A DNA stretch of 34,899 bases. Origin: a virus. The notes beneath the pieces were generated by a model that saw nothing but the letters and a program-made list of their open reading frames with translations, did no database searches and was not told the DNA's origin. The translations under genes and the position numbers were made by a program. The DNA lies in the IMG/VR virus record IMGVR_UViG_3300044608_001602, positions 1 to 34,899 of that record. One strand, written 5' to 3'. Position 1 is the first letter of the stretch. Each line of letters starts with the position of its first letter. Below are positions 277 to 27,675 of this stretch, one piece after another.

Positions 277-1111
277 CTTGAATTTGCATCAGCGCATTAT
301 TCAGATAATGAAGACCATGGGGGCTGTCGGAAAGGGCGGGCAGACTAATTACGGCGACAGGTTTTTTTATCATAAGATCGATGATATTGACGACAGATTG
401 CGAATGGCACTGGTTGAACACGGCGTAGTGGCTGTTGTCGATAAGGTAAGCGAGCGTAGACTCGAAGACAAAGAAGATCAAGACAAGTACGATAACCCAA
501 GAACTACTTGGAATGCTGAGTGCTTAGTTACCGTCAAGCTGATTAACGTAGACAACCCAGAAGACACCTTGTCGGTGGTAGGCTGGGGGCAGGGGCTTGA
601 TTACGGAGACAAGGCAACAGGGAAGGCTCTCAGCTACGCGCTGAAATCACTCTACCTCAGTACGTTTCACTTGCGTGGGCAGCCAGACAATGAAGCCGAC
701 GACATGGAAAATGTTGGTGATCGCTCAGCACCGCCCAAAGAGCAACCAAAGCCACCTCCACCAAAGCCAAGTAACAAGACTGCAACGCCTGTAAGGCTGG
801 CGGAGCCAGATTACGACAGCTTGCCAAAGGATACGCAAACCTGGATCGACGGGTTGCGTCAATGCGATGAAGTGGGGATGCTCAACGACTACATGAGCAA
901 GATGCCAAAGGCGACCCAAAGCCAAGTGCGATCGTTCCACTTCAATCACCGCATTGATCTTTGGGGTAGGCAAATGCTGGCTGCTGATTCAATGGAGAAA
1001 CTGAACGTTGTGGCTAGCGATCCATTGCTAAGCAACGAGTCGGAGGAAGTCAAAGCGGCGGTACGCGGCACTTACAACAGTCGTCGCGACCAACTTAACA
1101 AAAAGAAGTAG
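269..1111 (+). CDS. ERF-family single-strand annealing protein
   Basis: A 280-residue protein of the ERF (essential recombination function) type. Such proteins bind ssDNA and anneal complementary strands during phage recombination and replication. The first ~150 residues show the ERF pattern: an N-terminal helix with the IMKTMGAVGKGG stretch, a Tyr/Phe-rich YHKIDDIDDRLRMAL segment, beta strands ending in TVVGWGQGLDYGDKATGKA-like sequence (here SVVGWGQGLDYGDKATGKA), and YALKSLYLSTFHL. A proline-rich linker (near residue 160-170) leads to a divergent C-terminal domain. I place the start at ATG 269 because GGAGG lies five bases upstream; a TTG at 257 would extend the frame by four residues. It overlaps the upstream gene and opens the replication block. 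Confidence 0.85.
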   Translation: MSNLNLHQRIIQIMKTMGAVGKGGQTNYGDRFFYHKIDDIDDRLRMALVEHGVVAVVDKVSERRLEDKEDQDKYDNPRTTWNAECLVTVKLINVDNPEDTLSVVGWGQGLDYGDKATGKALSYALKSLYLSTFHLRGQPDNEADDMENVGDRSAPPKEQPKPPPPKPSNKTATPVRLAEPDYDSLPKDTQTWIDGLRQCDEVGMLNDYMSKMPKATQSQVRSFHFNHRIDLWGRQMLAADSMEKLNVVASDPLLSNESEEVKAAVRGTYNSRRDQLNKKK

Positions 1112-1157
1112 TTTTCAGTTACAGTTAAAAGTTTTCATTGGAAAGGTTTATCGAGGA

Positions 1158-1463
1158 ATGAGCAAAGAAAATCGAGATGCGGTTGTTCACAACAATGAAC
1201 TAGCGGCAATGAAGGACAGCCGAAAACGCGACATGCCGGTGTTTTTGCTGGCTAGAGAGAACGGATCTCCTGATGATGCGGCTCACTTGTGGGTGGTTGC
1301 GGCTAGCGAGCATCAAGCCAAACTGGCGATGGTAGAGCGCGTGTGGCCGATGAGCAAGCTGACCAAGAAGGAAAGGGACGAGCGTTACACGGATTTGCTT
1401 GAAGCCGCGTTCGATCACCCTCCGGTGCAAGAAAGCGAAGCGGAACAGGCGGCAACTGCCTAA
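1158..1463 (+). CDS. small conserved-looking protein of unknown function
   Basis: A 101-residue soluble protein with no family I recognise. The middle has a pattern of a small alpha/beta domain (MPVFLLARENGSPDDAAHLW then VVAASEHQAKLAMVERVWP) followed by an acidic tail. The ribosome site is a weak GAGGA touching the ATG, with GGAAAGG further upstream. The stop codon sits in the loop of a 6-bp hairpin (GGCAAC/GTTGCC, 1452-1469), directly before the first tRNA-like RNA element, so the hairpin may help end the message or separate it from the RNA. Confidence 0.6.
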   Translation: MSKENRDAVVHNNELAAMKDSRKRDMPVFLLARENGSPDDAAHLWVVAASEHQAKLAMVERVWPMSKLTKKERDERYTDLLEAAFDHPPVQESEAEQAATA

Positions 1464-1470
1464 GTTGCCA

Positions 1471-1609
1471 GGATCGGCGGCGTGGCGTAACCACGATTTG
1501 AGACAAGCGGTATCGGCCAGAGAAGCGGAAACGTAGAGACTCGGCAGAGAATCAGGGGTAAACGATTGCATCCTGGAGGCCGTAAGCAGGTGCGATTCCT
1601 GCCCGATCC
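1471..1609 (+). ncRNA. tRNA-like structured RNA element 1
   Basis: A 139-nt element closed by a 7-bp stem, GGATCGG (1471-1477) with CCGATCC (1603-1609). After a 3-nt linker comes a 5-bp hairpin CGTGG-CGTAA-CCACG (1481-1495), in the place of a D arm. At the 3' side is a T-arm-like hairpin GCAGG-TGCGATT-CCTGC (1586-1602) whose 7-nt loop resembles a T loop. About 90 nt in between replace an anticodon arm. TTTT follows. The first 26 nt recur exactly at 24801-24826. It is too large for a normal tRNA, has no group I intron landmarks I can find and no tmRNA tag frame. Folded by eye only. Confidence 0.55.
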
Positions 1610-1611
1610 TT

Positions 1612-1753
1612 TTGAATGACTAGCAATCCCAGTGAAAGCTGGTAAGCCATGAAACGAGATCGATTGCTTGGATCGTTTCCAGGGCCATGCCTGACTGTAG
1701 CGAACGGTGGGTGCGAAGCATGGAGACTGTGACAGCCGGAGAGACGGCGAATT
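1612..1753 (+). other. gene-free stretch with hairpins between tRNA-like elements
   Basis: No gene is evident. Two strong pairings can be seen: GAAACGA with TCGTTTC around 1656-1681, and CCATGC (about 1684-1689) with GCATGG (about 1718-1723). A small GCCG-GAGAGA-CGGC hairpin follows just before element 2. The density of structure suggests that elements 1 and 2 belong to one processed transcript. This is inference from pairing alone. Confidence 0.35.
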
Positions 1754-1852
1754 AGGGATTTGGCAACTTGGAGTTGCGGACTGGGCTGGCTGGACACCAG
1801 CTAGGAGAAATCCGATCCAAACCAGTTCAATCCGTTCAAATCGGGAGTCCCT
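1754..1852 (+). ncRNA. tRNA-like structured RNA element 2
   Basis: A 99-nt element with the same plan as element 1 but different sequence. The closing stem is AGGGATT (1754-1760) with AGTCCCT (1846-1852), 7 bp with one G-U. Two bases later comes the D-arm-like hairpin GCAAC-TTGGA-GTTGC (1763-1777). The middle domain is closed by GGACTGG (1778-1784) with CCAGTTC (1822-1828) and holds GCTGG-CTGGACA-CCAGC and a GGA-GAAA-TCC mini-hairpin. The T-arm-like part is CCG-TTCAAAT-CGG (1832-1844), with a near-canonical T loop. The independent sequence with the same architecture argues against coincidence. Confidence 0.5.
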
Positions 1853-1857
1853 GCTTG

Positions 1858-1880
1858 CCAACCCACTTCGGGGCGGCGGT
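1858..1880 (+). repeat. 23-nt GC-rich hairpin repeat, copy 1
   Basis: The segment starting GCCAACCC and containing CTTCGGGGCGGC follows element 2 and recurs at 2440-2461 after element 4 with a single A/G difference. It can fold as a small CCGC/GCGG-type hairpin. Both copies lie just upstream of a ribosome site and coding gene (1911 and 2503), so it may be a processing or boundary signal between RNA element and message. Confidence 0.5.
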
Positions 1881-1910
1881 TAATGTTTACTTTTACAATC
1901 GGAAAAGATC

Positions 1911-2225
1911 ATGCAAACTCACGAAGATTCGCAACACATTTTTATGCAGGAACTCAGGGAACGCGCAGCCAAGGCGAGGAGTGCATCAGCGTCAGTGATT
2001 GCGGCTGGAGAAAAGAACGAAAAAGAGCTTGGCTCTTGGAAAGCGTCGAACGGCGTTCATTGCAGCCATCTACCTGATGATCCCCAAGGAATCTTGCGAT
2101 TGAGCATCGGAGGTGGCGAGCATCTTCCGGTGACGATGAATTACGTGGTGGTTCGCGGGAAGATCGGACAATGTATCGAGTTGCTAGAAAAGGCTCTTGT
2201 GGCGTTGCGTGAGTGCCCAGAGTAA
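1911..2225 (+). CDS. small protein of unknown function
   Basis: A 104-residue protein lying between tRNA-like RNA elements. The N-terminal third is helical and charged (QELRERAAKARSASASVIAAG). The second half is a beta-rich stretch (GILRLSIGGGEHLPVTMNYVV) followed by a C-terminal helix with leucines. I recognise no family. The start is ATG 1911, preceded by GGAAAAG. The last 65 bases overlap a candidate pairing AGATCGG/CCGATCT (2161-2167 with 2232-2238) that resembles the closing stem of the RNA elements. The stop is followed by CCTGCCCGATC and a T7 run. Confidence 0.6.
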   Translation: MQTHEDSQHIFMQELRERAAKARSASASVIAAGEKNEKELGSWKASNGVHCSHLPDDPQGILRLSIGGGEHLPVTMNYVVVRGKIGQCIELLEKALVALRECPE

Positions 2226-2245
2226 TCCTGCCCGATCTTTTTTTG
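2226..2245 (+). terminator. repeat of the RNA element 3' end followed by T7 (possible terminator)
   Basis: CCTGCCCGATC (2227-2237) is the same 3' end motif seen at 1598, 2424 and 24931, followed here by seven T. It could pair with AGATCGG inside the preceding gene (2161-2167) and end the message of 1911-2225. No complete T-arm hairpin precedes it, so this copy is degenerate. Confidence 0.35.
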
Positions 2246-2276
2246 AATACCGCAAGGAGATCCGCGAGGTAGCCTT

Positions 2277-2316
2277 GAGTGCAAAGCAAAGAAAGGCTTT
2301 CGGGCACTTTGCACTC
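2277..2316 (+). other. strong 10-bp stem-loop
   Basis: GAGTGCAAAG (2277-2286) pairs perfectly with CTTTGCACTC (2307-2316), with a further AAAG/CTTT pairing inside. It lies between the degenerate element end at 2226 and tRNA-like element 4. There is no T-run after it, so it is not a classical terminator; a processing stem or part of a longer structured RNA is more likely. Confidence 0.45.
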
Positions 2317-2329
2317 TAAACAGCGGAGA

Positions 2330-2435
2330 GGGTCGGATTGATGCGATTTACCGCATGGCGTTGCAGGGTTCTACGGGATCACAAACGCCGGAACGTAAAC
2401 AAGTTGATTTGCAGGTAGCCAGTCCTGCCCGATCC
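2330..2435 (+). ncRNA. tRNA-like structured RNA element 4
   Basis: A 106-nt element. Closing stem GGGTCGG (2330-2336) with CCGATCC (2429-2435); compared with element 1 one A-U pair is changed to G-U, which keeps pairing. Next is ATGCG-ATTTAC-CGCAT (2341-2356) in the D-arm place, then a 6-bp middle stem GGCGTT (2357-2362) with AACGCC (2384-2389), then a possible short variable arm, then GCAGG-TAGCCAGT-CCTGC (2411-2428). TTTT follows at 2436. The T-arm-like loop is 8 nt here, so it is not a canonical tRNA. Confidence 0.5.
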
Positions 2436-2439
2436 TTTT

Positions 2440-2462
2440 GCCAACCCGCTTCGGGGCGGCGT
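2440..2462 (+). repeat. 23-nt GC-rich hairpin repeat, copy 2
   Basis: Second copy of the segment at 1858-1880, again placed directly after a tRNA-like element and before the next coding gene (start 2503). The single difference is G for A in the ACCC(G)CTTC part. Confidence 0.5.
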
Positions 2463-2502
2463 TTATGAGAGTAGTTTCTTAGCATTTAATTGGAGTTTGA
2501 TT

Positions 2503-2832
2503 ATGGCTAGACGTAAGAAAGAGCATTGGGCTCCGGCAAATTGGATCGAATTTGGAAATCGAGTGAAAAAGCTGCGAGGTGAGCTTCAGTCGATGCTTAT
2601 GGATGTTCAGTGCGTTTGCCGAGCAAAAGAGTTCAGGGGTCTCATGAGAGTCCTGGAAGGGCTAGACAAGTGGAAATGTTCAATGGAGGACGTTGCTTCG
2701 GAGGACGTTCCAGAAACGATCGTTACTCGAATCTTTTATGGCGATCCGATTCCAAGGGACGACGCAGAGCGCAAGCAATTATTGTCGATCTTTGAGCCTC
2801 CACCAAAAAACTCGGGCTCTACAATTGGGTAG
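2503..2832 (+). CDS. small basic protein of unknown function
   Basis: A 109-residue protein. The N terminus is basic and helical (ARRKKEHWAPANWIEFGNRV), with a helix ending near residue 40, then a Cys-containing stretch and a C-terminal half rich in acidic residues and prolines. No family recognised. ATG 2503 is preferred over the TTG at 2497 because TGGAG lies seven bases before it. It is followed 29 bases later by the helicase gene, so both probably share a message. Confidence 0.6.
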   Translation: MARRKKEHWAPANWIEFGNRVKKLRGELQSMLMDVQCVCRAKEFRGLMRVLEGLDKWKCSMEDVASEDVPETIVTRIFYGDPIPRDDAERKQLLSIFEPPPKNSGSTIG

Positions 2833-2861
2833 TAACAAACATCAAAAGCGTTGACGATAAA

Positions 2862-4433
2862 ATGATTGAGATCCCAACATTACGACCGTACCAAGAAACG
2901 CTCGTTGCCGAACTGCGAAAGGAACTTGCAACGCACAAGAGCGTAATCGCTTGCATGCCTCCTGGTGCTGGCAAGACGATAACCGCCAAGCACATCCTGG
3001 GTGCTTACTTGAATCGACCGAAGCGAGAGAACGAGTCTGGGCGAGCCGCCTTTATGGTTCACCGCCGTGGTCTTGTTCAGAACGCCAGCGATTCGTTCAA
3101 TGAGCATCCTGTGTTACAGCATGGATTGATCATGTCGGGTTGCGACACATCTCCTGGGAGAAAATTGCAAGTCGCCTCGATCGACACCAAGTTAAGTTGG
3201 TACGTTGACAAGGAAAAGTACGCCACCGATCACACATACGATTTTCTGGTGTTCGATGAGATTCATGCGCAGGTGCAGAAGTTCAGGTCGTTCCTATTGG
3301 CGCACAACGCGAAGCGGCAAGAGTTAGGGCTGGCTGAGCCGTTTGTGCTAGGGCTGTCTGCCACACCTCAGCACAAGGAACTGAACAAGATATTCTCAAA
3401 GATCGTCAACGGGCCGTCCCCGTCCTGGCTCATCGACAATGGGTTCCTGTCGTCGTTTAGGTACTTCCAAGCCACCAAAGGCAAGCTAGACGTACTCGTA
3501 AAGAAAGGCGACGAATACACCGAGGACAGCGTTGCAAAGGCTATGGAGGGGCTTGCAGGAGATCTGGTGCGGGATTGGAAGAGGCTAGCCGAGGGCAGAG
3601 CTACGGTCGGGTTCTTCCCCAGGCGATCGCAGGCACAAGAGGCGATGGAGCTGCTTCGACAAAACGGTGTTGATGCCTACTACGTGGACGGGGAGACTGA
3701 GGACGAAGAACGCCAACGGCTATTTTCGCACTTAAACAAAGGTTACATCCAGTATATTTGCAATGTCGGGGTGATCGAGCGAGGGACGGATATCCCAAGG
3801 GTTGGGTGCGTCCAGCTCTGCACCGCAATCGGCAGTGTTGTTCGATATCGCCAGATGGTCGGTAGAGGATCCCGAGTTCATCCCGAAGTGTCCGACTGCA
3901 TTGTGCTCGACCATGCCGACAACATTCGAAAGCACGGATTCTTCGAAGACGACATCGACTGGACGCTGGAATGGGGCGACCGTCCAGCCAAGACGCACGA
4001 AGCCAGGGCTACCGTCGAGTGCCCAAGTTGCGGAGCGATCTACCGTGGCGGCAAGTGCAAGCAATGCGGGTATGAGCCGACTCCAAGAGAGATCAAGTCG
4101 CAGGGATTGGAGTTTGTTGCTGGCGAGATGCGGGAGGTAAACCGAAGTGCTCAGCCAAAAACGAAAAAGCCGACATGCAAGGAGATTATGATCCAAGCCC
4201 TTCGCATGGCTGGAAGTAGCAATCAAAACTTCAGGCAAGCATTAAGGCTTGCGTACATTGAAGCGGGAAAGCACGGCTTAACGTTCAGAGTCCCTGCTAC
4301 ATTTGAAGTGGGCGATTTGGTTTTCAAGCCAATACCAAGAGAGCACCCAGACCAAAAAGTAAAGGTTCGAGCAACCTACGGTTTTACAGTTGGTGACAAT
4401 TCTACGAGTAGAAACCCTTACAGAGTGAGTTAA
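2862..4433 (+). CDS. superfamily 2 DNA helicase with zinc ribbon
   Basis: A 523-residue DEAD/DEAH-type helicase, likely the phage replication or recombination helicase. Visible motifs: a Q-like motif LRPYQ at residues 7-11, Walker A PPGAGKT (33-39), motif II DEIH (132-135), motif III SAT (166-168), and motif VI QMVGRGSR near residue 335. After the two RecA-like lobes a four-cysteine ribbon of the form CPSC-x8-CKQC follows near residue 388-403, then a basic C-terminal tail of about 110 residues. The family is common in phages beside an annealing protein and a primase. The ribosome site upstream of ATG 2862 is weak. Confidence 0.88.
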   Translation: MIEIPTLRPYQETLVAELRKELATHKSVIACMPPGAGKTITAKHILGAYLNRPKRENESGRAAFMVHRRGLVQNASDSFNEHPVLQHGLIMSGCDTSPGRKLQVASIDTKLSWYVDKEKYATDHTYDFLVFDEIHAQVQKFRSFLLAHNAKRQELGLAEPFVLGLSATPQHKELNKIFSKIVNGPSPSWLIDNGFLSSFRYFQATKGKLDVLVKKGDEYTEDSVAKAMEGLAGDLVRDWKRLAEGRATVGFFPRRSQAQEAMELLRQNGVDAYYVDGETEDEERQRLFSHLNKGYIQYICNVGVIERGTDIPRVGCVQLCTAIGSVVRYRQMVGRGSRVHPEVSDCIVLDHADNIRKHGFFEDDIDWTLEWGDRPAKTHEARATVECPSCGAIYRGGKCKQCGYEPTPREIKSQGLEFVAGEMREVNRSAQPKTKKPTCKEIMIQALRMAGSSNQNFRQALRLAYIEAGKHGLTFRVPATFEVGDLVFKPIPREHPDQKVKVRATYGFTVGDNSTSRNPYRVS

Positions 4434-22165: not shown

Positions 22166-22708
22166 ATGATCCTTACCGACAAACAAATGCAACTGGCAAT
22201 CAAAGTCGGCAAGATGCGAGCAGATAGCGGTGCTGGTCGTGGCGACTACCTGTCGTGCGATCGGTCTCCGTCTGGTCATTCGCATGTTCAAGCTGCGATC
22301 GCTGAATGCGCAATGGCTTTGTACACAGGGTTCCCGTGGCGAGCTCACAAGCCAGCATCGGAGCACAAGGGCAGGAAGGTTTGCCAAGTTCCAGATGTCG
22401 GCCCGATCGAGGTGAAGTCGATATCCAAGGCTCACCACAAGCTGATCTTGTATTCAACGCCACTGATGGAATCGCCGCATGTCCGATTGCTGGTAAACGG
22501 CTCGGAAGTCACATTCATGGGATGGGCGTTCGGTTTTGAAGTCTGGGATCCGAAGCATTGGGACACAAGCTTGCCGACACCAGCCTACGCTCGACAGCAC
22601 CTCTACGGATCAAAATCGCTATGGAACTGGTGCAGGCAAAGTGGATGGGAAGCCAAACAAGTCGAATACCCGATTTTTGAAGATGGATGGAAACCCACAG
22701 GCTTGTGA
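22166..22708 (+). CDS. PD-(D/E)XK nuclease-like protein
   Basis: A 180-residue protein with the outline of a restriction-endonuclease-like fold. An early acidic helix (IAECAMALYTGFPW) precedes VPDVGPIEVKSISKAHHKLI, where Asp followed by E-V-K would be the P-D...E-x-K active site. VRLLVNG and MGWAFGFEV follow as strands. Relatives appear in many marine and environmental phages with unknown substrates. ATG 22166 is used, since the TTG at 22157 lies in the previous gene. Confidence 0.6.
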   Translation: MILTDKQMQLAIKVGKMRADSGAGRGDYLSCDRSPSGHSHVQAAIAECAMALYTGFPWRAHKPASEHKGRKVCQVPDVGPIEVKSISKAHHKLILYSTPLMESPHVRLLVNGSEVTFMGWAFGFEVWDPKHWDTSLPTPAYARQHLYGSKSLWNWCRQSGWEAKQVEYPIFEDGWKPTGL

Positions 22709-22709
22709 C

Positions 22710-22738
22710 TTGCGTTTGTGGGGCAATGATGCTACAAT
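22710..22738 (+). promoter_or_regulatory. conserved phage promoter, copy 4
   Basis: TTGCGT (22710-22715), 17 bases, TACAAT (22733-22738). The spacer reads TTGTGGGGCAAT, with the GGGGCAAT part conserved. It lies 47 bases before the gene at 22785. Confidence 0.65.
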
Positions 22739-22784
22739 GGTGGCGTGTTGGTTGTTTTGTGTTTTGCAATAGGCATGAAGATTG

Positions 22785-23036
22785 ATGGGTAGCCTAGCAA
22801 CATTCGAGTTCTTTGGAGGCCCACACGACGGAGCAATTGAGCATTTCCCAAGCGACATTCATTACACATTAACAACGTGGATGTCGATTGAAGGAGGGTT
22901 TAGAGTTTTTCAGCAAGAGCAGTTGTATGTCGTGCGAGAGTTAAACGGCGATGCTGTGCAATTGCCAAACGGATGCTTCGCGATGGATTACGTTCAGCAT
23001 GGACAACAAAAACCAAAGTGGACGCCAGGACAATGA
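22785..23036 (+). CDS. small phage protein (FGGPHDG type)
   Basis: An 83-residue protein beginning GSLATFEFFGGPHDGAIEHF, which matches a common phage pattern of F-x-GGP-x-DG at the start of short beta proteins. The rest is beta-rich (GGFRVFQQEQLYVVREL). Function unknown. It overlaps the following coiled-coil gene as ATGA. Confidence 0.65.
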   Translation: MGSLATFEFFGGPHDGAIEHFPSDIHYTLTTWMSIEGGFRVFQQEQLYVVRELNGDAVQLPNGCFAMDYVQHGQQKPKWTPGQ

Positions 23037-23185
23037 ACGACAAAGACAAGATTCAAAAACTTGAAGATGAAGTGTTTTGGTTAAAGACAAAGATTAAGGT
23101 TTTACGGGAGCGAAACAAGGAGCTTAGGCAATGGATAGTCAAACTGACGAACAAAGATCATCCGGCGAGAAAGTCGGCGAAGTGA
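23033..23185 (+). CDS. 50-residue coiled-coil peptide
   Basis: Starts at ATG 23033 in an ATGA overlap. The sequence IQKLEDEVFWLKTKIKVLRE then RNKELRQWIVKL has leucine/isoleucine heptads for about 35 residues, so a dimeric coiled coil. The end overlaps the next gene by 55 bases. It could be an oligomerisation partner of a neighbour. Confidence 0.55.
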   Translation: MNDKDKIQKLEDEVFWLKTKIKVLRERNKELRQWIVKLTNKDHPARKSAK

Positions 23186-23862
23186 AGATCGAACAATTTT
23201 GGCGGGATGCAACCGCCGGGGATGTCGCCCGAGCGATGAAGGGCGAGAATGTCGAGGCAAGGTTTCGGGATGGGGATGACGAAAAATGGAGAGATGGTGA
23301 GTTTCTTGGTGGGTTCCGTACTTTTCGCTCTATTCCTTTAGCGTGGATCGACCTCGATGGGGTGCAATGGGCTCACTGCCAAGTCTACGAGCCTCAACAA
23401 TGGTGGCTCAACAAGCCCGATCCAGGGCCGGGGTGGAGGTTGCTTGAGAAGTTTCCAGCGGAAGATTTGCAACCCGGTGATGAGTGGTTTGAACCTAGTC
23501 CGCTTGAGACAGGATGGAAAGTGTCGCACAACGAAAGGCAAGCAGACACCCTATGGTATCGCCGACGCATCGAGCCGGTGAAACAGGATGCCGGATCGAC
23601 TTGTGCAAGCAACATACCTAAAGGCTGGACGGCTCTTTCGGATGATGAGCCTCGATTGGAATCGGATGCGTTTTGGTCGGTAGGTGCGAAAGACTGGGTA
23701 ATCATCGATGAATGCAGGGTCGAGTACGCCAACCGCGACAAGTGGCCAGCGATTCGGCAAGTCGAGACGCATAAGACCATGCAACTAATGGAAGGTTGCT
23801 TTTACAGGCTTCCCAATGGCCAGGGCATCAAGGTCACAAAGCAAGGCTTTGAGTTGCAATAG
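23131..23862 (+). CDS. modular protein sharing a domain with the leftward 8107-9330 protein
   Basis: A 243-residue protein. Residues ~20-90 (WRDATAGDVARAMKGENVEA, RFRDGDDEKWRDGEFLGG, AWIDLDGVQWAHCQVYEP) match the C-terminal module of gene 8107-9330. A second unit near residue 100 (PGWRLLEKFPAEDLQPGDEW) and a third near 165 (IPKGWTALSDDEPRLESDAF) resemble parts of gene 15362-16150. It thus seems built of short repeated beta modules. ATG 23131 has AAGGAG eight bases upstream. Confidence 0.65.
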   Translation: MDSQTDEQRSSGEKVGEVKIEQFWRDATAGDVARAMKGENVEARFRDGDDEKWRDGEFLGGFRTFRSIPLAWIDLDGVQWAHCQVYEPQQWWLNKPDPGPGWRLLEKFPAEDLQPGDEWFEPSPLETGWKVSHNERQADTLWYRRRIEPVKQDAGSTCASNIPKGWTALSDDEPRLESDAFWSVGAKDWVIIDECRVEYANRDKWPAIRQVETHKTMQLMEGCFYRLPNGQGIKVTKQGFELQ

Positions 23863-23955: not shown

Positions 23956-24639
23956 ATGAAGTTTTCTAAGTTGAAAGCTGTGGCGTTGGTGCTTGTGGTT
24001 TTTTTGCTGTCGGGGCTGAGCTATGGACAAGAATGCGCAAACGGACAATGCTACAGGCAAAGCGGTGTCGCTCGACAAGTGGTCGGAAATACTGTCCGAG
24101 GTACGGCGCAAGCAGTCGATCGAGCCGGCACAATTGCAGTACACGCCACTGGAGCCGTCATTGAACGAGTCGTCGATGCAACGGGACAAATTCTTACTGC
24201 AACAGTCGATACAACCGGCAATGTTGTCTACGCGGCAGCTCGTGTCGCTACAGCCCCGGTTCGAGTAGTTTCGGCTGGTCTTGCTCAGTCAAAAGCAGAG
24301 CGTCAAGCATCCTCGAATCGTCTGTACCACGTTGGCGGCGGGTTCGGCGGTGGCTGTGCTGAGGGCGTTGGGTTCTCGACAAGCTCACCTGATAGAGCGA
24401 TTCGAGCGTGCTGTTACTGGGGCAAATTGCCAGTCCAGGAGATTGGCGTAGCGCGTGGCCGTAACGGATGGTACGCGACCGTGATTTACAGCCAGCGTGC
24501 GACAGGCCCAAGTAGGCAACAAGTAACACAGTACATGCAGTCGAATAACGGCTCTGCACCCCCGGCTAGTTGGTATCCAAACGGCGATCCCTGGAGGAAC
24601 CTGACAGCCAAGGAGGTCAACGAAGCGTTTGGCGACTAG
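23956..24639 (+). CDS. secreted protein with planctomycete-type C-terminal domain
   Basis: A 227-residue protein with a signal peptide (MKFSKLKAVALVLVVFLLSG then LSYGQ). The middle (residues ~30-120) is a Val/Ala/Thr repeat-like stretch (VGNTVRGTAQAVDRAGTI, TATVDTTGNVVYAAARVA). The C terminus has EGVGFSTSSPDRAIRACCYW and VQEIGVARGRNGWYATVIY, a motif I associate with planctomycete exported proteins. It may act in the envelope, for example in surface modification. ATG 23956 follows GGAGG by nine bases. Confidence 0.7.
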   Translation: MKFSKLKAVALVLVVFLLSGLSYGQECANGQCYRQSGVARQVVGNTVRGTAQAVDRAGTIAVHATGAVIERVVDATGQILTATVDTTGNVVYAAARVATAPVRVVSAGLAQSKAERQASSNRLYHVGGGFGGGCAEGVGFSTSSPDRAIRACCYWGKLPVQEIGVARGRNGWYATVIYSQRATGPSRQQVTQYMQSNNGSAPPASWYPNGDPWRNLTAKEVNEAFGD

Positions 24640-24730
24640 CAGTTCATGCTCGGCAGTCGGAGGGAGAGGATCGGCTGTCGAGAGTGTACGGTGCAAAGAG
24701 CGCACGCCGGACAAACGTAACCGGCAACAT

Positions 24731-24797
24731 TGCGGGTGGGCTAGGCCCATCAGAGCCTCATAAGCTCCGACTGCTAGGTGCGATTCCTAGACTCGCA
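24731..24797 (+). tRNA. tRNA-like gene with CAU anticodon and reduced D arm (candidate)
   Basis: A 67-nt fold: acceptor TGCGGGT (24731-24737) with ACTCGCA (24791-24797), 7 bp with one G-U; a tiny GGGC-TAG-GCCC arm; anticodon stem GAGC/GCTC with the 7-nt loop CTCATAA, giving CAT at 24759-24761; variable loop GACTG; and T arm CTAGG-TGCGATT-CCTAG. The loop start T-G instead of T-T, and the short D arm, are unusual. No CCA is encoded. The anticodon region also takes part in a competing 10-bp pairing with 24653-24662. A tRNA search would settle it. Confidence 0.45.
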
Positions 24798-24800
24798 ACT

Positions 24801-24942
24801 GGATCGGCGGCGTGGCGTAACCACGACGCAGTACGGCAAAGCGTCATCTCACAATCGGCGAAACCCTGCTAGGACACGGCGGCAGGGAAAGTTGGTGCCA
24901 TCGTGAAGTGAGAAGCAGCAGGTATACAAACCTGCCCGATCC
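24801..24942 (+). ncRNA. tRNA-like structured RNA element 6
   Basis: A 142-nt element starting three bases after the CAU tRNA-like gene. Closing stem GGATCGG (24801-24807) with CCGATCC (24936-24942); D-arm-like CGTGG-CGTAA-CCACG (24811-24825); middle stems ACGC/GCGT, TCTCAC (24847-24852) with GTGAGA (24908-24913), and CCCTGC (24864-24869) with GCAGGG (24882-24887); and T-arm-like GCAGG-TATACAAA-CCTGC (24918-24935). TTTT follows. Both ends repeat element 1 while the middle is unrelated, as expected for a conserved scaffold with a variable insert. Confidence 0.55.
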
Positions 24943-25080
24943 TTTTGAAGTTAGGAGAGTGTGGCTCAGATCAGTAATGAGATGGGTGGCTGGTCACAGG
25001 TCAGATACGACCCTTAGTTAGCATCATAGTGCGAAAGGCACAGTATACACCCTGGCTTCTTTTTCAAAACAGGAGAGTTT

Positions 25081-25599
25081 ATGATGACATTTCAAAGTTT
25101 GGTGTTTGCGTTTGCTTGCGGCAAAGGCGGCGTGATCGTACTCTCCGCCTTGCTTGCTGTTGCGCTCAGGATCGCCTTGTGGTCGCTCAGTTTGAGGGAC
25201 TTGGCGATTGCTGGCTCGATTGTCTTGGCGTGGCCGACACTCGAGTACGTCTTCCACAGGTGGTTTTTCCACGAATGGTCTTGGACTCCGTTCCGCAAAA
25301 CGCATGATCGGCACCACGACTACCCGACGACCGACACAGGGCTACCCGACTGGTGGGTTATCTGCATGTACTTCGTAAACTCGGCGCTGTTCGCGTTTAC
25401 CACTCCAGGGCTTTATACAGCGCATTGCACGGTGCTTGTGCTTCTGTCGGCATACGAGTTCATCCACTTCTCGTGCCACTGCAACTACACTCCAAAGACT
25501 TGGTGGGGCTGGTCGGTGAGGATCAACCACCTTCAGCATCACAAGTTGCAAAACGCTGACAGGTACGCCATGTCCTTGCCAATCTTCAGGTCGAAATGA
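25081..25599 (+). CDS. fatty-acid hydroxylase / sterol-desaturase-like membrane protein
   Basis: A 172-residue membrane protein with the histidine motifs of the fatty-acid hydroxylase superfamily, which binds two irons: YVFHRWFFHE (residues ~57-66), THDRHHDYP (~74-82), EFIHFSCHCNY near 122 and INHLQHHKLQ near 146. Hydrophobic segments flank the motifs (VIVLSALLAVALRIALW, FVNSALFAF). The enzymes hydroxylate or desaturate lipids, carotenoids or sterols. In a phage this would be an auxiliary metabolic gene acting on host lipids. The ATG follows ACAGGAGAG. It overlaps the next gene as ATGA. Confidence 0.7.
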   Translation: MMTFQSLVFAFACGKGGVIVLSALLAVALRIALWSLSLRDLAIAGSIVLAWPTLEYVFHRWFFHEWSWTPFRKTHDRHHDYPTTDTGLPDWWVICMYFVNSALFAFTTPGLYTAHCTVLVLLSAYEFIHFSCHCNYTPKTWWGWSVRINHLQHHKLQNADRYAMSLPIFRSK

Positions 25600-26252
25600 C
25601 AAGCCAAGAAAACTATCTAAATGTAAACATTCCGTTTTTCTGGGGATTCCTCGACACGGCGTTCCTATACGACAGGGAGCCAAGTGCCGCAAACGAGCGG
25701 ATCCCGATGGAGTTTTTCCTCTACACCTCCATCCCGAATCGATGTGGACTATTCACCGGCATGAGCGAGTGGGGGACTCAACACGCCAGGATCCCGATCC
25801 ATTACATCCACACCGAGCCCGAGGGCGGGATAGACTACCCGCTGGACTTTCTCCAGCTTTGGGACAGTTTTAGCTACCACTGCTCGGCTCTTACGATCGA
25901 CTACATCAAGAACCGAAGCTGCAAGGTGCTCCTGAAAGACCGATCGATCATCGATGGAACCTACATGTTCACCCTCGATTGGTGCAACGGAGGGTACAGC
26001 GAGATCGCTGCGGGGCACAAGACGGGTCATGTGATCAACGCCAATGGACGCGTTTTCATCCAGCCGAACAACCGTATCGTGCGATGGAACGACGGAGGGG
26101 CGTTTACGAGCAAAACGCTCAAAGGTCGCCCCGACTGGAAAGTTTTCAGCCAAGAGTTCAGTTGCGAAGCCTCGGCGAGCCGCTGGGTGGCCGACAGCGA
26201 TGACGAGCTGTATTGGTACGGGTTTACAAAAACAGAGGAAGCTGAATCTTGA
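25596..26252 (+). CDS. protein of unknown function coupled to the hydroxylase
   Basis: A 218-residue protein that starts inside the hydroxylase stop. It is aromatic-rich and looks soluble (VNIPFFWGFLDTAFLYDREP, YPLDFLQLWDSFSYHC, GTYMFTLDWCNGGYSEIAAG). It resembles phage proteins with a beta-sandwich but I cannot assign a family. Tight coupling suggests joint work with the hydroxylase, although a shared role is not demonstrated. Confidence 0.6.
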   Translation: MTSQENYLNVNIPFFWGFLDTAFLYDREPSAANERIPMEFFLYTSIPNRCGLFTGMSEWGTQHARIPIHYIHTEPEGGIDYPLDFLQLWDSFSYHCSALTIDYIKNRSCKVLLKDRSIIDGTYMFTLDWCNGGYSEIAAGHKTGHVINANGRVFIQPNNRIVRWNDGGAFTSKTLKGRPDWKVFSQEFSCEASASRWVADSDDELYWYGFTKTEEAES

Positions 26253-26563
26253 TCGAAGTGCTATTCATCGGTGGAAGCAGGGACAGAACTTTATCAAAGG
26301 TTCCAGCGAAAAAAACGAACAGAAGGATACCTGATATCGTTCGACTGCCCTTGCCATTACTAGAAGAAGCCATCAAGTCACGCGGAGATGCGTTTTATCT
26401 TGAGTGGTACGAACTGCAATTGGTTTCCTTTTGGGGGAGATCGCTATGGGTCTACGTCTTGGAAGGTCTGCTAGGATCGCAACAACGCGATGACTTCCTG
26501 AAAAGAAGCGAAGTTAGCCAAAAGCTAAGGGATCTGGTTGACATCCAAGAAGAACCAAGATAG
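26249..26563 (+). CDS. small protein of unknown function
   Basis: A 104-residue protein with a TTG start overlapping the previous stop (TTGA) and GAGGAAG upstream. It starts IEVLFIGGSRDRTLSKVPAK, a strand-loop pattern, then a helical part with many aromatic residues (AFYLEWYELQLVSFWGRSLW). It is the last rightward gene before the structured stretch at 26564-27087. Confidence 0.55.
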   Translation: MIEVLFIGGSRDRTLSKVPAKKTNRRIPDIVRLPLPLLEEAIKSRGDAFYLEWYELQLVSFWGRSLWVYVLEGLLGSQQRDDFLKRSEVSQKLRDLVDIQEEPR

Positions 26564-27087
26564 TATTGGAAGTGCTGAGTGGTTTCAGCGCAGACAGGAT
26601 TTCAGTTCGACTCCAAAAATTCGCCTCAAGGCGTTTTCTCGTGCGTAATCCTGTCGCACAGCTCTCCCCCAAAACCACATCCTGGGGGAGAGCACGTAAA
26701 TGGCATGAGTGTAATGCCGGGGATCCGGCGCTTGTGCCTGCAATCGTTTGAGCTAGTTGCCCGATCTGTGGAAGACCGCCAAAGTGCATGGGATTGAGTA
26801 AGCGAAGCGTCCTGCGGCGTGGATATGCTCTTAACCTCAAGGGTCGAACAGGTGCAGCAGGCTGGCGATGGGTGGACGCTGGTCAGGCAAACGGCGATAA
26901 GGGGATGCAGGTCTCCCGCCTCTTACCCTTTCCGAATAAGCCCATTGGTCAGTTCCAGGAAAAAACCCCTGGATTCCGGCAGGTAGCGAGATTGCATACT
27001 ATTTATGGGCCTGGGGTGCGCTTGTACCTGTCGCGTTTCGCAGTTGCCTGCAAAACGCTGTCTGGTTGTAGTCTTGCTTGCGTCAGA
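26564..27087 (+). ncRNA. large hairpin-rich non-coding region, candidate structured RNA
   Basis: A 524-base stretch with no convincing gene. Visible stems, in order: GCTGA/TCAGC (26574-26589), GACAGGATT/AATCCTGTC (26593-26655) around CGCC-TCAA-GGCG, an 11-bp GCTCTCCCCCA/TGGGGGAGAGC (26661-26693), GGCAT-GAGTGTA-ATGCC (26702-26718), GCCGG-GGAT-CCGGC (26716-26729), TCCAGG/CCTGGA (26954-26973), CAGGTA/TACCTG (26980-27030), and GCGTTT-c-GCAG-TTGC-CTGC-a-AAACGC (27033-27058). It lies between convergent genes, so some stems may be terminators. The strand is assumed. Confidence 0.45.
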
Positions 27088-27675
27088 TTAAGCAGTCTTG
27101 AGATACCTGTAGACAGTTCTACCGCTGACTCCAAGGATTTTCGCTACTTCATCAATGGATAAACCTTTCTCGATAAGCTTCGGCGCCTTCGATATGTCAA
27201 CGCCAGCTTTGACAGCGCCCTTTTTCCTACCTTGGTAAATTCCTTTCTCCTTCGCTGCGGCGATACCTGCTGCCTGTCGCTCCCTTCGGGTGTTAGTTTC
27301 CATCTCGGCAACAGCAAACAGCACCGCAGCGATAAGCTGACCGATCGTACCAGTGAAATCGATCTGTTGAGAAGTTGAGACCACTCGAATACCTTTCCTG
27401 CACCACGAACAGAGTGTGTCTACTCCATCCTGTAGAGATCTCGAAAGTCGATCGAGCTTGTAGACAACCACGGTTTTGATTGCGCCATTGAAGATATCGC
27501 GCTGAAGCTGCTCAAGTTGAGGTCTCGCAAGGGTTTCGCCGCTCTCCTTGTCGATGTACCAAATCACCGTATCCGGATTGATACCGTTTCCAGTGAGCCA
27601 CTTGATAATCTCGCGCTTTTGACCAGCAAGATTCTGTTCAGCCGTACTAACTCGAACGTAAACCGCCACACACAT
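27088..27675 (-). CDS. serine recombinase of the resolvase/invertase type
   Basis: A 195-residue Tn3/gamma-delta-like serine recombinase. The catalytic Ser10 lies in YVRVSTAEQNL, with Arg8; DRLSRSLQDGVDTL supplies conserved Arg residues; the long E helix (LIAAVLFAVAEMETNTRRER) follows; and the C-terminal helix-turn-helix is SIDEVAKILGVSGRTVYRYL. The length is usual for resolvases and too short for a large serine integrase. It could resolve multimers, invert a segment or serve integration. No terminal inverted repeats or transposase are seen. ATG 27675 has AGGAGG six bases upstream. Confidence 0.9.
   Translation of the reverse strand: MCVAVYVRVSTAEQNLAGQKREIIKWLTGNGINPDTVIWYIDKESGETLARPQLEQLQRDIFNGAIKTVVVYKLDRLSRSLQDGVDTLCSWCRKGIRVVSTSQQIDFTGTIGQLIAAVLFAVAEMETNTRRERQAAGIAAAKEKGIYQGRKKGAVKAGVDISKAPKLIEKGLSIDEVAKILGVSGRTVYRYLKTA

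Follow-up and report, generated by a model that had tools for sequence, protein, structure and literature searches.

What kind of RNA, if any, is encoded where a phage genome carries sequences that fold like tRNAs around a large central insertion, and do such sequences form a family? The question is posed by the window, a 34.9-kb IMG/VR fragment analysed over its full 34,899 nucleotides, which encodes Erf, a helicase and a DNA methyltransferase, together with an SU10-like portal match falling just under the Pfam cut-off. A first-pass annotation, made from sequence alone, had described three elements here, at 1471-1609, 1754-1852 and 2330-2435, as one family with a shared plan. The coordinates and the plan were confirmed, and MFE folds of all three reproduce it (13, 4 and 1 of 200 shuffles of the three elements folded equally well). 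The proposed family of three held only in part: 1471-1609 (element 1) and 2330-2435 (element 3) belong to it, but membership of 1754-1852 (element 2) is unproven. A repeat search of the window recovered a further element at 24801-24942 (element 4), whose leading 26 nt are identical to 1471-1496, and elements 1, 3 and 4 very likely represent one RNA family.

Architecture of the window elements

All four elements lie on the forward strand. Elements 1, 3 and 4 consist of a 7-bp acceptor-like stem, a D-arm-like hairpin, a middle of 54-92 nt replacing the anticodon arm, a T-arm and a terminal TTTT. In element 1 the acceptor (1471-1477/1603-1609; GGATCGG...CCGATCC) encloses the hairpin CGTGG-CGTAA-CCACG (1481-1495), the middle (1496-1585) and the T-arm GCAGG-TGCGATT-CCTGC (1586-1602), with TTTT from 1610. 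Element 3 combines an acceptor (2330-2336/2429-2435; GGGTCGG...CCGATCC) with the hairpin ATGCG-ATTTAC-CGCAT (2341-2356), a middle at 2357-2410 and the T-arm GCAGG-TAGCCAGT-CCTGC (2411-2428), again followed by TTTT, while element 4 has the acceptor GGATCGG/CCGATCC, the hairpin CGTGG-CGTAA-CCACG, a middle at 24826-24917, an 8-nt loop in the T-arm and TTTT. Element 2 also has a tRNA-like fold, with the hairpin GCAAC-TTGGA-GTTGC, an inner 5-bp/7-nt hairpin (GCTGG-CTGGACA-CCAGC) and the T-loop TTCAAAT, but its acceptor (AGGGATT/AGTCCCT) is unlike the others, it has no homologue among the related loci compared, and the T-run claimed for most of the elements, present after elements 1 and 3, is absent here. 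A covariation-like signal had also been claimed within this one genome; it is weak, because the change from GGATCGG to GGGTCGG is merely a G-U variant and element 2 lacks a homologue, and decisive covariation was found instead in the copies of other phages.

Other RNA features adjoin these elements. Directly 5' of element 4 is a probable tRNA-Met (CAU; 24731-24797, forward strand) with a reduced D-arm, which ARAGORN calls in relatives and misses in the window, and 5' of this the non-coding stretch 24645-24728, 81-98% conserved in seven related loci, is possibly another RNA. A second RNA element (element X; 1612-1748, forward strand) adjoins element 1, with homologues at about 87% in four other loci (L481, L352, L322 and L057), and ends in GTGACA-GCCG-GAGAGA-CGGC (1729-1748). 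This motif occurs at 26 further sites in other loci, often 2-7 nt 5' of tRNA-like elements or tRNAs, and it also precedes genes in many unrelated phages, being found in at least 119 viral stretches. Its GAGAGA-loop hairpin covaries (148 of 165 sites are fully paired, with nine stem types), in four loci Rfam gave it no match at E<=1, and most exact matches in isolate phages carry no annotation. Elsewhere in the window, 26540-27080 is mostly without an obvious gene and about 77-100% conserved across many relatives, and the protein encoded at 19816-20520 matches a PHROG family without assigned function and has a weak match to queuine tRNA-ribosyltransferase.

The elements in the window went unrecognised by every annotation tool applied, and the claim that they are neither standard tRNA nor tmRNA, nor any known class, held. 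ARAGORN found no tRNA and no tmRNA in the whole window, and no Rfam model reached its gathering score there. Over 1000-3000 the tRNA, tmRNA, GOLLD, ROOL and intron models were all without a match at E<=5, and HDV-like models were silent both there at E<=5 and over 24600-27100 at E<=10. A weak local likeness to RAGATH-21 (RF03097) near the T-arm of element 1 (19.9 bits, E 2) does not meet the gathering score of 70.3. Family members were likewise absent from 50,697 phage records (INPHARED) and 72,556 plasmids (PLSDB), BLAST matches to phage and plasmid records being confined to T-arms or unrelated genes, and none of the 80 bacterial chromosomal loci examined, from at least 118 stretches reported, holds a full element. 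The class is absent from the RNA databases searched. In a literature search that left most subscription papers outside its coverage, the tRNA-like phage RNAs described were GOLLD and ROOL, theta ribozymes and non-canonical tRNAs, all of which are different.

Pairing and covariation in related viruses

A structural descriptor specifying a 7-bp acceptor and a 5-bp T-arm with a TNCRANN loop, run on 1.05 Mb of related contigs, returned 26 matches where two Markov shuffles gave 10 and 5; adding a D-arm to the requirement left 17 matches, with 5 and 0 in the shuffles. A separate T-arm/acceptor pattern was found in 95 viral stretches, many with the 5' side GGATCGG-CG-GCGTG and with middles very different in length and sequence; in the relatives L005 and L006, elements of 56-80 nt replace the longer ones of the window at the Erf-helicase locus. 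The D-arm signature CGGCGTGGNGGGAACACG, a search key that places no requirement on the acceptor or T-stem, marks 76 viral stretches in IMG/VR. The T-loop was then taken as the first TTCRAAT downstream, with no pairing demanded, and 18 more signature sites without TTCRAAT, several of which have variant T-loops, were excluded from the core set. At least six of the seven acceptor positions pair in 45 of 47 distinct cores, compared with 69 of 4,960 control placements (1.4%), and at least four of five T-stem pairs form in 45 of 47, where only the T-loop was used for placement. For 38 distinct cores the covariation score of the named structure was 0.580, against 0.144 +- 0.014 in shuffles and no more than 0.091 for slid partners, and both sides change in 11 of 17 pairs, comprising all seven in the acceptor and four of five in the T-stem. 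In this test the D-arm, having served as the search key, cannot vary; it does so in the GGATCGG set, where its pairing is preserved.

A covariance model trained with element 1 included and element 4 left out found copies in 16 of 20 virus records, 1-8 in each, so that what had been noticed as a left cluster in a single genome extends to covarying copies in many phages. Element 4 matches the model with an E-value of 1.5e-7; element 3 scores just 9.2 bits, and is placed in the family because its acceptor and T stems are identical and a homologue exists. We conclude that the family is very likely a real RNA with a tRNA-like outer frame, in the absence of transcript data. As sequence comparison establishes, the acceptor stem, D-arm and T-arm of tRNA are kept and the anticodon arm is replaced by a structured middle of widely varying length. 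No CCA is encoded in any of 72 members and it would therefore need to be added.

The loops of the two arms vary in a linked manner. In the GGATCGG set, D-loops with GG accompany T-loops starting TT, and other D-loops accompany TG, TA or CG. Under a strict GG rule the association gave counts of 32/9/5/19 for all members (Fisher p 8.6e-6) and 17/8/3/18 for non-canonical members (p 3.2e-4), and p 3.2e-6 with CGGYAA loops set aside; since the association was noticed before testing and the classes were partly set post hoc, these values are descriptive. Single cases fitting a moved pair are GACGGTGA with TTC, GACAGTGA with TGC and GACAACGA with TGT. The canonical GG and TT are both missing in about half of non-canonical members, window elements 1, 3 and 4 included. 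D- and T-loops change together, as would be expected if their contact persists in many members, and this linked change amounts to a natural experiment on the tRNA elbow. As a separate observation, a tRNA-Thr (GGT) at L112:3927-4004 has the T-loop TTGGAAT and the D-loop GCC, a candidate C19-G56 swap of the elbow pair.

That these are intron-interrupted tRNAs, with an insert in the anticodon arm whose splicing would yield decoding tRNAs, is suggested by the 56-80-nt forms with tRNA-like loops in L005 and L006, and by tRNA-like genes with long inserts and canonical D-arms in L087 and the L037 group. However, anticodon-arm-like hairpins are not enriched in the middles (4 observed against 2.9 expected in 77), and the idea of an anticodon arm concealed there was dropped on this count; the minimal members, at 64-65 nt, are too short for such an arm, and Rfam intron families give no match in the window stretches scanned. 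We regard this explanation as very improbable for the family. The L037-type genes, found in nine loci (L037, L059, L064, L069, L080, L089, L090, L099 and L101) with a canonical-looking D-arm and an insert of roughly 90-110 nt, may themselves be tRNAs with an intron.

Turnover of the middle and genomic context

At a given locus, close relatives carry entirely different middles: when the window is compared with L006, L112 or L115, the flanks are mostly 84-96% identical and the middles at matching loci cannot be aligned. Where homologues exist the fold is kept, and the same middle recurs in otherwise different phages. The element 1 middle recurs in L310, L075 and L045 at 94-98% with its fold intact, so that it is found in four phages with four different D/T-loop pairs; 159 of 160 cells are paired among these homologues and no pair is changed on both sides. 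The homologue of element 3 in L135/L140 (79%) and that of the element 4 middle in L046 (92%) each differ from the window copy by two double compensatory changes, of which one falls within the middle. These two tests rest on two sequences each, which leaves the shuffle control with low power; slid structures pair 29-48% of cells. The mean folding z for 77 middles is -0.75 (s.e. 0.11), the middle alone being ordinary in element 1 (-1.03) and giving no signal in element 4 (0.11). An antisense role was not supported (the longest stretch complementary to the own locus was 10.0 nt, where 9.7 was expected; p 0.05), and there was no clear sign that the ends are copied from ARAGORN-called tRNAs at the same locus: at least 6/7 of the 5' strand of the acceptor was shared in 2 of 25 cases, and in 20 of 618 controls. 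In the 204-kb virus record of L046, a tRNA called SeC (TCA anticodon; 3354-3428) has the same acceptor and T-arm as nearby elements.

The large flanking ORF is co-directional with the element in 66 of 78 cases upstream and 59 of 76 downstream, and a mechanical ORF of at least 100 aa overlaps 27 of 90 elements. Flanking genes have replication, recombination and head functions, and no dedicated partner gene common to the neighbours emerged. Among 294 genomes sampled from the phylum to which a genome titled Planctomycetota belongs, one holds a full element, within a prophage that lies beside a tRNA-Leu and carries integrase, repressor, antirepressor, Gam-like, Sak4-like, SSB, helicase and primase genes; we infer from this only that the window's own phage may infect Planctomycetota.

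One possible, though rather unlikely, explanation of this arrangement is tRNA punctuation, in which the elements only mark cut sites in long phage transcripts and the middle is passive filler. In animal mitochondria, tRNAs mark sites of transcript cutting, and the present elements are mostly intergenic and co-directional with genes; that of the prophage sits between two early genes, gam-like and sak4-like. Filler would be expected to drift, however, and the middles are structured, keep their pairing in homologues and are nearly unchanged in different phages.

A second alternative, which we think unlikely, is that the elements act at the DNA level as cassette boundaries, with cargo genes recombining or attaching at the tRNA-derived repeats and the RNA fold surviving merely as a relic. 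In its favour, the 3' remnant of an element with its downstream flank (2226-2274, forward strand; repeat-search fragment 2226-2242) abuts the stop codon of ORF 1911-2225, L075 and L481 having complete elements at the matching place; a beta-helix-type gene in L006 is flanked by elements; and distant sites have identical ends. Against it, diverse stem sequences stay paired and loops covary, neither of which a DNA site needs, and the neighbours examined are mostly genes usual for phages rather than integrases. Integron attC sites were rejected as an explanation, the attC core not being seen and the T-arm being left unexplained.

tRNA-derived scaffolds and known systems

The reading we prefer, and one that the evidence leaves evenly poised, is that these are a family of tRNA-derived scaffold RNAs encoded by phages of uncultured bacteria, each with an exchangeable payload; processing and payload function are inferred, without transcript, end-mapping or protein-partner data. 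The elements would be transcribed together with neighbouring phage genes, released by host RNase P and 3'-end enzymes acting on the tRNA-like ends, and given a CCA, the result being short stable RNAs in which the middle is the active payload. Identical ends would allow the phage to swap payloads through single-strand annealing recombination, and the Erf gene lies next to the left cluster. The outer frame and the gene order make excision by tRNA enzymes plausible, a proposal that could equally prove right or wrong; such processing is uncertain for about half of the non-canonical members, those of the window included, because the T-loop sequence that the enzymes contact has been lost. We lean modestly towards a payload role, also inferred, because the middles have conserved folds and are exchanged between phages. 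The payload would most likely act against varying host factors, which we propose because the middle turns over quickly; defence systems are one example, and counter-defence as its purpose is a guess that can be called no more than possible. The first-pass annotation had suggested decoys or substrates of the tRNA machinery as possible roles; the data favour a scaffold with an exchangeable structured insert.

A bolder and tentative version holds that phages use a worn-down tRNA as a natural scaffold on which a library of interchangeable RNA effectors is displayed, these acting on host factors, for example against defence. If true, the family would parallel, at the RNA level, the variable pockets of anti-defence genes in phages. 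With its tRNA top half and interchangeable payload it would also be a natural equivalent of the tRNA scaffolds used in laboratories and a new way for phages to present effectors, and it would test how much alteration a tRNA tolerates before processing fails.

Among known systems, tRNA itself (RF00005; non-canonical tRNAs, PMC7609411) shares the 7-bp acceptor stem, the D-arm, the 5-bp T-arm, the TTCRAAT T-loop of many members, the covariation of D- and T-loops and the tRNA neighbours. It differs in that the elements lack an anticodon arm and have a middle of 14 to about 180 nt, and those of the window match neither ARAGORN nor Rfam RF00005; ARAGORN calls one L006 element tRNA-Pyl. tmRNA (RF00023) similarly joins a tRNA-like end domain to an extra domain, but the elements are far shorter, give no tmRNA match by ARAGORN or Rfam, and lack the G3:U70 feature of alanine charging in all 72 members. 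YrlA, a bacterial Y RNA, has a tRNA-like fold without decoding, and the elements might be phage relatives of such RNAs, which tether the Ro60 protein. A TROVE (Ro60) protein is encoded in one of 28 records (L335, record G328, 22406-23422), a phage record in which the D-arm signature is present too; the match is missing in the other 27, which may be fragments, and Rfam scans gave no Y RNA family, making this relationship very unlikely. GOLLD and ROOL (PMC12286853) likewise come from phages and prophages, have no known function and often lie near tRNA islands, but they are far larger (many GOLLD RNAs exceed 800 nt), with an elaborate fixed architecture, and their Rfam models do not match the elements. 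Theta ribozymes (PMC10879173) resemble the elements as phage RNAs adjoining tRNAs, but theirs is an HDV-like self-cleaving fold beside a tRNA end, whereas the elements described here contain the tRNA-like arms themselves.
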